Shown here: positions 9,045 through 12,398 of the stretch, piece by piece | Position numbering within the stretch: the stretch's first letter is position 1 | How the letters are laid out: every line of letters starts with the position of its first letter | Assembly (NCBI GenBank): GCA_029242325.1 | Contig: JAQWUD010000030.1 | Coordinates: 1 to 64,000 of the forward strand | Source of the DNA: Luminiphilus sp. | GTDB lineage: Bacteria; Pseudomonadota; Gammaproteobacteria; Pseudomonadales; Halieaceae | Reading direction: 5' to 3' | Length of the DNA: 64,000 nucleotides | The notes under the pieces: generated by a model | What the model was told of the DNA's origin: nothing | Database searches by the model: none | Seen by the model: the letters and a program-made list of their open reading frames with translations, nothing else | Translations under genes and position numbers: made by a program

Positions 9045-12000
9045 ATGGCATGCCCAGGCGGTTCAAGAGCAAGGTTAGCAAATAAGCTCTTGCTAGTGCT
9101 CATGCTGGCTGGACACCCAATCTGGCTTTTTGCGCAGACGCCGGACGAGGACTCCTACGTGCGTTTCGCGCCGGGCCTGCCGGCCGGTGCTCAGAGGATT
9201 CTGCACGAAAAATCTGATCCGCCCGCGGCCCCATTGCGCTTGATTTCTTTCCGCGGCGCGCACAGTCAACAGGCCACCACCGGCAAGGAAAATTATGGCG
9301 TGAATCCTCTTGAGATGAGCCTACTGAAACTGAAGAGGCAGCGCTCGGATGTCACGGTAAAAGTGGATATGCAAGCTGATTTAAGAGCGGCAGAGTCATC
9401 CTCCGATCTTTCGGTCAAAGCGATTCATCACCACGTGGCCGATACCGTTCTATTTCACGGTGGTATACCCGATGAATCGACTATCCCGGGTGTTAAACCA
9501 CCAGGTGTCCACGTGCTTGACACGGTGACGCGGTCTCTTTTCAACAGAAACGAACCGGCATTTCAGAAGTCTTTACCCAGTGAGTCATCCTCCAAATCGC
9601 TGTCCCGCACGATAAAAAATCTTGAAGCTGTAAAACCTCTTCTTTCTGATGGTGGTTCGGCTTTTGTCACGCCTACGCAGGCCATTTTGGAGAGAGTGAA
9701 AGCTTTGAACCTTGGCGATCAGGCGCCACGGATCCCCGATGAGTCCGATCCTAAGGTGACCGATCCTAAGGTGACCGATCCTAAGGTGACCGATCCTAAG
9801 GTGACCGATCGGATCCCTGATGAGCCCGATCCTAAAGTGACTGATCGGATCCCTGATGAGTCCGATCCTAAGGTGACCGATCGGATCCCTGATGAGTCCG
9901 ATCCTAAAGTGACTGATCGGATCCCTGATGAGTCCGATCCTAAGGTGACCGACCGGATCCCTGATGAGTCCGATCCTAAGGTGACCGACCGGATCCCTGA
10001 TGAGTTCGATCCTAAGGTGACCGACCGGATCCCCGATGAGTCCGATCCTCAGGTGACCGATCGGATCCCTGATGAGTCCGATCCCCGGGTGTCTGATCGG
10101 ATCCCCGATGAGTCCGATCCCTGGGTTTCAGATCGAATCCCTGATGAGTCTAATCCTGAGTTGACCGATCGGATCCCCGATGAGTCCGATGCTGCAGTGA
10201 CTGATCGGGTCCCGGATGAGTCGAATCTCGATGTGACTGACCAGATCCCTAGTATCTCCAAAGCGGCCCTGATTGAAAGAGTGGGCAGCGCCACTAAGCC
10301 GGCTATCGAAGACTCGGTGCCAGATCAATCGCGGGCTAGTTTGTGCGACCAAATTGCTAGAGGGGCATCCCCTGATACCGGCGGCACGAGGCGAGGATCG
10401 GTGCTGGATTTTGATGAGGATTGCAAGGTGGGCAGTAACATTGCGGCGGTCGCCACTCCGTCAGTCACGAAGCACGCTATCTGCGAACAGATTGCCCACG
10501 CTGCCTCGGTCAGACCGAAAAATGCCGGTGAATCACCCCCGATACATTTTGGTGGAGAATGTAAGGTGAGCTTTCAGCCTGTCACAGATGAAATAGCTCG
10601 GATCGAAAAAAAAATAGCGGCTGCGGTTTCATCGGATGGCATAAAAAAAGAGCTAAAAGCCGATTTGGGCGGTATGGCCAACAAGATCGCGTCCGCAGTG
10701 GGCGCTGCCTTTGACAATGTTGAAAAACAACTTAAAGCGCAGGGTAGTGAAGAACGCTCTAAAGCGGGTCAGGTCGATGTTCCTGAAAAAAAATGCAGAA
10801 TTATCAAGCTGGGTCTTTGTTGGGGTGGGGAGACCTCAAAATCCAAGGCGGATCGTAGCTCTGCGCAGGCCGAAAAGGATGCCCACAACAAAACTGCTGA
10901 TCAATTTTTCAAAGCAGCAGATCAAATGCCCGTCAAAAAAGCGGTTGCACAAGCGTCGATCTATCAGAAGTTTGCCGGTGCGGAGGGTGCTATTAACAAG
11001 GGTTTAGCTCCGAGTTTGTCAGTGCCCTCCACTACAGCGACTGAGTCGGATAAAAATAGTGGGGGGGCTGATAGCTCCAGTCACGGTACGCGGCCTGACA
11101 ATGGGCATCGTTCTAAGGTGGATAATGATTCTGCGGTAGTAGCACTGGTCACAATCGATTCGCAGACACTCGAGTATGTCATCTCGAATTTGGTGAATGC
11201 CGCTATTGGTTACGAAGCCAATGTTGAGCAATACATCGCCGTCATCGATAGTGTCGCAGGCGACCTTACAGTGGACTCTGCAACTTGGTTGCCCACGAGC
11301 AGCGATGCTGAGTCGATCAATGCAGCTATTGGGGACCACTCAACAGCGCGCCAACTGGTTGACTCTATCTACGACGAATCGGGTGTCTCGTCCGTGGGGA
11401 GAGCGACTTTTATTACGCGCAATATTGGAGAGATTAATGTGGCGATTGGGTCCCGCAGCGAGGCGGAAATGGTGGTTTCTACCCTTACCGGGTCGGTAGA
11501 GGGGTCTTTTGACGCGACCTCTGTCACTCTCGCGCCAATCAATGTATCGATGGGGCATGACACCCAATCGACCATGCATCTGGGGGCTTGGCAGGGTAGC
11601 GTTAAAACGAACGGGATCTTATTTATCCAGCCCACAGCAGCCTTGTCGGCCGCCATCGGCGAGTCTACATTGGCAACAGTCCGGCTAGCTAGCCAAAGCG
11701 TCGGTGCTAGCGCGGATTGGCTCGATATCTCGGTCGTGTCTGAAGGCTCTTTGGCCGCACCATTGGGTTACAGCGCCCAAGCTGAAATAGCAATGGGCAA
11801 TGTGGATGGGCACGTGGGGCATGGGACTGTCACAGTCGTCACCGGGCCTGTCATTTCGGCAGCCTTGGGTTCCCACACCGCCGCCACCAACCGGGTCGCC
11901 AATCTTGAGAAGGGGAAGCGGGTGAGCGGCCAGTACAAGAATCACGCACAAACGGGAGGTCTACTCGCCTTCAGTCTGGGTGATCACACTCACGCGACTA

Positions 12001-12398
12001 ACGCGATCGGCTCAGTAGAGGCAAATGTTGAGGGTTATGCTGACATCAGTGTCACAGCGGGCGAATTGGCAACCGGAACGGTTGGAGAACGCACGGTAGC
12101 GGAAACTTACGTTGGTTCAGTACTTGCCGATGTGGTGGGCGATGTCGATATTAATATCGTCGTGGGCGCTATCAATACTTTTGCAGTGGGCCTAAGTAGT
12201 GGTGAAGACATTTATGCCAAAACATATATTGGTAATGTCACCGGCCGGCAAAATAGCGTCGACATTAAGGTGAGCATGGGTGGCGTGTTCAACCTTGGCT
12301 ATGGTTTGATCATTGACTTGGGGGGGGCTCTCGGTACTCTGAATTTCTCCCGGCAGGGATGCGTCAGCGTGGCCAACCAGGGTTCAGCGCCCTGCTAA
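9045..12398 (+). CDS. Large exported repeat protein, putative CsgG-dependent surface adhesin/fibre protein
   Basis: 1117 aa; signal-peptide-like N-terminus (LANKLLLVLMLAGHPIWLFAQ); central 12-aa tandem repeats; C-terminal periodic NAAIG-type modules; no autotransporter barrel recognised. Confidence 0.7.
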   Translation: MACPGGSRARLANKLLLVLMLAGHPIWLFAQTPDEDSYVRFAPGLPAGAQRILHEKSDPPAAPLRLISFRGAHSQQATTGKENYGVNPLEMSLLKLKRQRSDVTVKVDMQADLRAAESSSDLSVKAIHHHVADTVLFHGGIPDESTIPGVKPPGVHVLDTVTRSLFNRNEPAFQKSLPSESSSKSLSRTIKNLEAVKPLLSDGGSAFVTPTQAILERVKALNLGDQAPRIPDESDPKVTDPKVTDPKVTDPKVTDRIPDEPDPKVTDRIPDESDPKVTDRIPDESDPKVTDRIPDESDPKVTDRIPDESDPKVTDRIPDEFDPKVTDRIPDESDPQVTDRIPDESDPRVSDRIPDESDPWVSDRIPDESNPELTDRIPDESDAAVTDRVPDESNLDVTDQIPSISKAALIERVGSATKPAIEDSVPDQSRASLCDQIARGASPDTGGTRRGSVLDFDEDCKVGSNIAAVATPSVTKHAICEQIAHAASVRPKNAGESPPIHFGGECKVSFQPVTDEIARIEKKIAAAVSSDGIKKELKADLGGMANKIASAVGAAFDNVEKQLKAQGSEERSKAGQVDVPEKKCRIIKLGLCWGGETSKSKADRSSAQAEKDAHNKTADQFFKAADQMPVKKAVAQASIYQKFAGAEGAINKGLAPSLSVPSTTATESDKNSGGADSSSHGTRPDNGHRSKVDNDSAVVALVTIDSQTLEYVISNLVNAAIGYEANVEQYIAVIDSVAGDLTVDSATWLPTSSDAESINAAIGDHSTARQLVDSIYDESGVSSVGRATFITRNIGEINVAIGSRSEAEMVVSTLTGSVEGSFDATSVTLAPINVSMGHDTQSTMHLGAWQGSVKTNGILFIQPTAALSAAIGESTLATVRLASQSVGASADWLDISVVSEGSLAAPLGYSAQAEIAMGNVDGHVGHGTVTVVTGPVISAALGSHTAATNRVANLEKGKRVSGQYKNHAQTGGLLAFSLGDHTHATNAIGSVEANVEGYADISVTAGELATGTVGERTVAETYVGSVLADVVGDVDINIVVGAINTFAVGLSSGEDIYAKTYIGNVTGRQNSVDIKVSMGGVFNLGYGLIIDLGGALGTLNFSRQGCVSVANQGSAPC
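9729..10241 (+). repeat. In-frame 36-bp tandem repeat array (13 units, consensus RIPDESDPKVTD) with a nested 15-bp sub-repeat (4x gatcctaaggtgacc at 9747..9806)
   Basis: Read directly from DNA and translation; central units near identical, 3' units progressively diverged. Confidence 0.95.

Follow-up and report, generated by a model that had tools for sequence, protein, structure and literature searches.

An operon in the window (the whole 64,000-nucleotide stretch of Luminiphilus sp. DNA that was analyzed) encodes a 103-aa and a 1117-aa secreted protein that, judged from profile comparisons, almost certainly share one homologous repeat, and the gene for a CsgG-like putative export pore lies between them. 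Whether this operon builds a CsgG-dependent surface structure on one ~36-aa beta-solenoid repeat, with the small protein docking on the giant one, is about evenly balanced on the evidence described here. Most of what is known about CsgG-family pores comes from curli and the holdfast anchor, and the system of the window looks like an undescribed relative of these surface-structure systems. A sequence-only reading had placed the two ORFs and their repeat motifs at this site, and all of them were found there. The genes and neighboring features are as follows, L021 being a contig from a Halieaceae MAG that carries a counterpart of the operon.

2558..2633, + strand: tRNA-Ala (ggc), from ARAGORN; likely integration hotspot, upstream of the operon
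2781..3974, + strand: probable tyrosine recombinase (integrase); Pfam Phage_integrase E 1e-5, 25.8 bits, slightly below the cut-off of 27.1
5931..6584, + strand: envelope protein that opens the gene run; ORF without a significant Pfam or NCBIfam family, not kept upstream in L021
6658..6969, + strand: 103-aa secreted accessory protein; 53% identity to L021:4532-4861, without a Pfam or NCBIfam match above cut-off
7029..7340, + strand: 103-aa secreted two-repeat protein (putative small subunit) with a C-terminal Cys pair; from HMM, hhalign and genome profile searches
7334..7717, + strand: small secreted protein ending C-x-S-x-x-IGN ... VGDxxNVGN-C; 48% identity to the L021 protein, start codon uncertain
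7721..9013, + strand: CsgG-like lipoprotein, 430 aa, putative outer-membrane export pore; from the HfaB model and a 16-sequence profile, 65% identity to L021
9045..12398, + strand: 1117-aa giant secreted protein; ORF, N-terminal region 39% identical to L021
9745..10222, + strand: tandem DNA array encoding the charged 12-aa stalk repeat (DPKVTDRIPDES); Tandem Repeats Finder, 36-bp unit x 12 and 15-bp unit x 4.4
11151..12395, + strand: C-terminal repeat domain of the giant, 11 units of ~36 aa with a Cys pair at the end; from motif anchors, HMM, self-comparison and AlphaFold

The repeat shared by the small and giant proteins

The sequence-only reading had proposed that the periodic module of the giant C-terminus recurs in the small protein, and had named a profile-profile comparison as the test that could overturn this idea. 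In hhalign, the small-protein family aligned with the giant C-terminus at E 5.8e-5, with both repeats covered at 31% identity, and with the solenoid alignment at E 6.8e-6, while the controls, HfaD-type proteins plus one further secreted protein rich in beta structure, gave 0.28-0.72; the proposal therefore withstood the comparison. An HMM built from the small-protein repeats alone, as found in the window protein and its L021 orthologue, scored the giant C-terminus at 21.5 bits, compared with 11.0 for the best of 4,319 shuffles and 2.5 for the N-terminal part of the giant. Just four of the ~1,650 ORFs in the loci fetched ranked above the giant, namely the two source proteins of this HMM and two other CsgG-linked repeat proteins. 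A second repeat model, seeded on Thiodiazotropha proteins and with the window and L021 left out of its iterations, gave the giant C-terminus 21-31 bits, as against at most 13-15 bits in ~4,700 shuffles.

Running such models on both proteins and on genomes at large, as that reading had recommended, retrieved each protein with the profile of the other. In the whole 2.76-Mb genome, the small-protein profile had no matches besides the small gene itself and five separate sites in the giant. The giant-type profile, built without any small protein, retrieved the giant itself and, at E 9.4e-6, the small gene, and nothing else. Repeat models trained on sequences from other genomes gave the small protein alone only 3-13 bits, and thus the case for linking it to the giant depends on the profile-profile, reciprocal-genome and orthologue evidence taken together.

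It is very improbable that chance or convergence accounts for the similarity of these two secreted proteins, both of them rich in Ala, Gly, Val and Ser. The scores of single units are weak, that of the small protein alone lies near background with some models, and similar short repeats on a membrane protein, from a genome (G216) that has no CsgG on the 7.6-kb contig concerned, are also matched. Nevertheless, composition-preserving shuffles never equaled the scores of the giant, other beta-rich secreted control proteins showed nothing, and the reciprocal genome searches selected exactly two genes of one operon.

Architecture and predicted fold of the repeat proteins

Judged from their sequences, both repeat proteins begin with a signal-peptide-like segment, in agreement with the earlier view that they are secreted. 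In the giant, this start is followed by the N-terminal region conserved in L021, the stalk, a middle part with several cysteines, and a solenoid ending in GCVSVANQGSAPC. The repeat region occupies the last ~415 of the 1117 residues and comprises 11 degenerate units, with motif anchors at residues 720, 761, 800, 835, 870, 906, 940, 977, 1012, 1047 and ~1082, and hence successive spacings of 41, 39, 35, 35, 36, 34, 37, 35, 35 and ~35 aa. Units 1-5 span residues 703-743, 744-782, 783-817, 818-852 and 853-888, units 6-10 span 889-922, 923-959, 960-994, 995-1029 and 1030-1064, and unit 11, the most degenerate and positioned by eye, reaches the C-terminal Cys pair. In a self-comparison, a shift of 35 residues scored above the best shift of every shuffle (n=300). 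The original estimate of some 10-11 copies about 40 aa apart was thus right as to number, but the spacing is slightly shorter, at 34-41 aa and most often 35. The terminal Cys pair is common to the giant, the small protein and the small proteins of several other lineages, the Rhodocyclales type excepted.

AlphaFold2, run on the giant C-terminus with a four-row alignment, predicted an all-beta fold that repeats regularly (pTM 0.76); block means of pLDDT were 79-89 over about residues 890-1040 (units 6-10) and lower elsewhere. A Foldseek search with this model returned no significant match. Beta-solenoids and beta-helices made up most of its sub-threshold list, in which a curli subunit, Pontibacter CsgA (8c50, E 0.24), ranked first. 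The beta-solenoid-like character assigned to the repeat on first reading is consistent with this model and its neighbors, which support, as a prediction and not as proof, placement of the fold in the beta-solenoid class. The small protein was modeled with six strands at low confidence (pLDDT 66.6), and Foldseek found nothing with that model.

A single intact giant is known, that of this genome, and a second copy is cut by the contig end in one Halieaceae MAG. This contig, L021, keeps the gene order of the window, from the accessory protein through the two-repeat protein, the Cys-ended protein and the CsgG-like protein to the giant, at 39-65% identity. Because it ends 258 residues into the giant, near the expected start of the stalk, the C-terminus of the second giant is unseen, and a whole-genome search found no remainder of it. 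When the giant profile was run against 392 genomes of the order, only three matches lay outside this genome, all in or just past the low-complexity stalk.

The CsgG-like pore, known systems and the wider repeat family

By profile similarity, the 430-aa protein is a CsgG-superfamily lipoprotein. It matched the HfaB model (NF037935) at 25.3 bits (E 7.5e-6), and a 16-sequence profile of it reached E. coli CsgG structures at E 3.3e-4, which bears out the suggestion that the repeat proteins are encoded beside a CsgG pore. The Pfam CsgG model did not match it, and PDB sequence searches with the giant C-terminus or the single CsgG-like protein gave nothing useful.

Like curli, the window combines a CsgG-superfamily pore with a small secreted repeat subunit and a second protein that shares the repeat, and the repeat fold of its proteins is, as in curli, probably a beta-solenoid. 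The resemblance of the pore to curli CsgG holds at the superfamily level only. The repeat of the window is ~36 aa long with an NAAIG...SV signature, in contrast to the ~23-aa curlin repeat with its N/Q ladders, and the second repeat protein is a stalked giant of 1117 aa, whereas that of curli is a nucleator the size of CsgB. The curlin repeat (PF07012) gave no Pfam match up to E 1, QxGxxN and Qx10Q motifs were absent from the small protein and the giant repeat domain, and no CsgE or CsgF model matched either small accessory protein. Membership in curli was rejected, as the curlin repeat, CsgE and CsgF are missing.

The arrangement of the window also recalls HfaABD, in which a small protein, a CsgG-like pore and a large repeat protein are encoded in one operon. 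HfaB is the closest named model for the pore, yet the score falls far short of the 300-bit cut-off, and on these scores the pore is related to HfaB and not a member of it. HfaA and HfaD gave no NCBIfam match up to E 1, the HfaD model matched nothing in this genome, and hhalign against two HfaD-type proteins gave 0.28-0.72. Membership in HfaABD was likewise rejected, with HfaB far below its cut-off and repeat proteins unlike HfaA or HfaD. Because membership fails in both cases, the window is filed as a variant of CsgG-dependent surface systems that is neither curli nor Hfa.

The repeat is found in 100-316-aa secreted proteins beside a CsgG-like pore in Gamma-, Beta-, Alpha- and delta-type Proteobacteria, and this pairing recurs in dozens of other genomes. 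Scanning the genome collection with the CsgG-like protein yielded 186 relatives, 80 of which were fetched. A repeat-family ORF was present in at least 41 of 67 CsgG loci, mostly less than 5 kb away, a rough count given that the HMMs were partly trained on the same loci and overlapping-frame ORFs were not filtered; further cases occurred beyond these 67. Thiodiazotropha encodes proteins of 204-316 aa with five to eight near-perfect 36-aa units. Whole-genome searches with the giant-type profile recovered repeat proteins of its CsgG operons (E 1.9e-11 to 4.5e-9), and these aligned in register with the giant over eight units at 28% identity. Rhodocyclales-type genomes, Accumulibacter and Gallionella encode two-unit proteins of ~100-110 aa, often in tandem, and Roseicella a five-unit protein whose gene is divergent from CsgG. 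The C-terminal pattern of the Cys-ended protein at 7334..7717 also precedes CsgG in two other loci (L011 and L013).

Among 369 gammaproteobacterial genomes, seven had a CsgG-like gene. Five were matched by the small-protein profile, and four of these five also had a CsgG-like gene; as three of the four had contributed to the profile, one (G305) is the sole independent case. The fifth is G216, where the profile matched short membrane proteins with VSGxxNKSxxxxGTIG-type repeats (L163:5921-6927). A match of the solenoid profile in G056 was judged spurious, the region carrying unrelated genes. Viral contigs gave pattern matches and no relatives, and a plasmid search gave only two Azospirillum records. 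Ten proteins scanned had no Pfam or NCBIfam family above cut-off save for the DUF4384 and PG_binding parts of one pore protein. The literature searched, which excluded subscription journals and preprints, contained no description of the ~36-aa repeat family and no paper joining CsgG with DUF4384.

In several of these loci (L012, L019, L022 and others), the CsgG-like protein is fused to PG_binding and DUF4384 and has an OmpA-family neighbor, an arrangement that is common but not universal. Loci with CsgG-like, PG_binding and DUF4384 parts occur in Azospirillum, Thiodiazotropha, Accumulibacter and Rhodocyclales, and share with the window a homologous CsgG-like protein (25-32% identity), homologous repeat proteins of two to eight units and, in some cases, a Cys-ended small protein before CsgG. 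Unlike these loci, the window and L021 have a giant repeat protein and no adjacent OmpA gene was seen; Pfam detected neither DUF4384 nor PG_binding in their pores. The window has the CsgG-like lipoprotein and nearby secreted repeat protein that define the family, and since Pfam detects no PG_binding or DUF4384 in its pore it represents a variant of the CsgG/~36-aa-repeat family.

Other genes were observed in these neighborhoods. In Rhodocyclales-type loci (L088:4800-5711 and L064:9217-10161, + strand), the interval from the CsgG-like gene to the small repeat genes contains the gene for a possible metalloprotease of ~300 aa, which has an HExxH-like motif (HEISHGEYY or HEIAHGEFY). In G054, the CsgG/repeat operon is directly followed by a two-partner-secretion-like pair, a 567-aa TpsB-like and a 1354-aa haemagglutinin-like protein (L011:2569-8333, - strand), and caspase-like (peptidase C14-type) proteins lie near the CsgG-like gene at L012:6071-7801, L026:4417-7002, L030:11461-13986 and L015:2890-4191.

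Curli (PMC10192328, PMC3521004) and HfaABD provide the basis for inferring export route, stacking and adhesion. By this analogy, the 103-aa and 1117-aa proteins would reach the periplasm by their signal peptides, and the CsgG-like lipoprotein would export both, with the two other small proteins acting as periplasmic or pore accessory factors. The 11-unit solenoid of the giant would fold outside the cell and offer an open edge to the two-unit small proteins, which could add edge to edge on the giant or on each other to form a short fiber or patch, while the charged stalk and conserved N-terminal region would keep the giant at the surface. That both repeat proteins are CsgG substrates is probable; assembly of the small protein, whether on itself or on the giant, could go either way; and that the assembly is amyloid in the strict sense is rather unlikely. 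The small protein is inferred to polymerize and the giant to nucleate, with a putative role in adhesion.

In Caulobacter, multimerization of HfaA depends on HfaD, and neither protein reaches the surface without the CsgG-like HfaB (PMC6707917). An anchor-type complex without fibers, as proposed for Caulobacter HfaABD, in which a limited surface patch with few small subunits per giant tethers polysaccharide or substrate, is a serious but minority possibility. A small and a large protein with a CsgG-like pore repeat the layout of HfaA, HfaD and HfaB; moreover, a protein of two units is very short for a fiber subunit, and its C-terminal Cys pair could cap a stack instead of extending it. Against this, neither protein has sequence similarity to HfaA or HfaD, and many related genomes lack a giant and encode the small protein in several tandem copies, which fits a main subunit better than an anchor.

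Less probable still is that the two are independent adhesins, both exported by CsgG and sharing the repeat through duplication and common export needs with no mutual binding. Other genomes hold repeat proteins of very different length without a giant, so the repeat needs no partner of another size, but the genes of the window form one tight operon whose order is kept in L021.

Small-on-giant assembly on a CsgG pore remains the best explanation, supported by the profile links, CsgG homology, L021 synteny, the recurrence of the repeat/CsgG pairing, the all-beta model and the Hfa precedent; against it stand the lack of a significant fold match (best E 0.24), the poor small-protein model, the shortness of a two-unit subunit, the single intact giant and a size of 1117 aa that, judged from curli, is unusually large for a CsgG substrate. 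Tentatively, and at slightly under an even chance, it may represent a third class of CsgG-exported surface assembly apart from curli and Hfa, based on a Proteobacteria-wide ~36-aa beta-solenoid repeat with two-unit subunits docking on an 11-unit stalked giant. A widespread CsgG-linked family without a database model offers a test case for which sequences CsgG accepts, for a possible repeated origin of beta-solenoid surface structures on this pore, and for the way in which a common repeat pairs a large adhesin with a small subunit. Its carriers include plant-associated Azospirillum, the clam symbionts Thiodiazotropha and wastewater Accumulibacter, for which surface adhesion matters.

Genomic context and mobility

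Members of the genus share a glutamyl-tRNA-synthetase-like gene, the gene that follows it and tRNA-Ala, and differ in content thereafter: when window positions 2558..12600 were compared with five loci of other genus members (L138, L139, L140, L142 and L145), gene content after tRNA-Ala differed in each. The distance from the gene after the operon to the synthetase gene is 10.6 kb here, compared with 17 and 32 kb in two relatives, and the CsgG-like gene was absent from 36 other genomes of the genus, many of them incomplete. The region after tRNA-Ala is a probable variable region and integration hotspot, and, with a probable integrase adjoining the tRNA, the operon was probably acquired as an island. 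No repeat of the tRNA-Ala 3' end marking an att site was found in the window, and promoter and terminator scans gave no more than chance.

Downstream of the operon, the listed start of the ORF at 12599..13468 (- strand) is probably too far upstream, as the similarity to homologues in the genus begins, for the most part, near residue 83 and the stretch before it overlaps a divergent ORF at 13227. An Azospirillum plasmid, AZO_p4 of A. lipoferum 4B, carries a related repeat/CsgG/OmpA set (L019, 1981-8229) that adjoins a site-specific integrase, which suggests mobility, as in the window.
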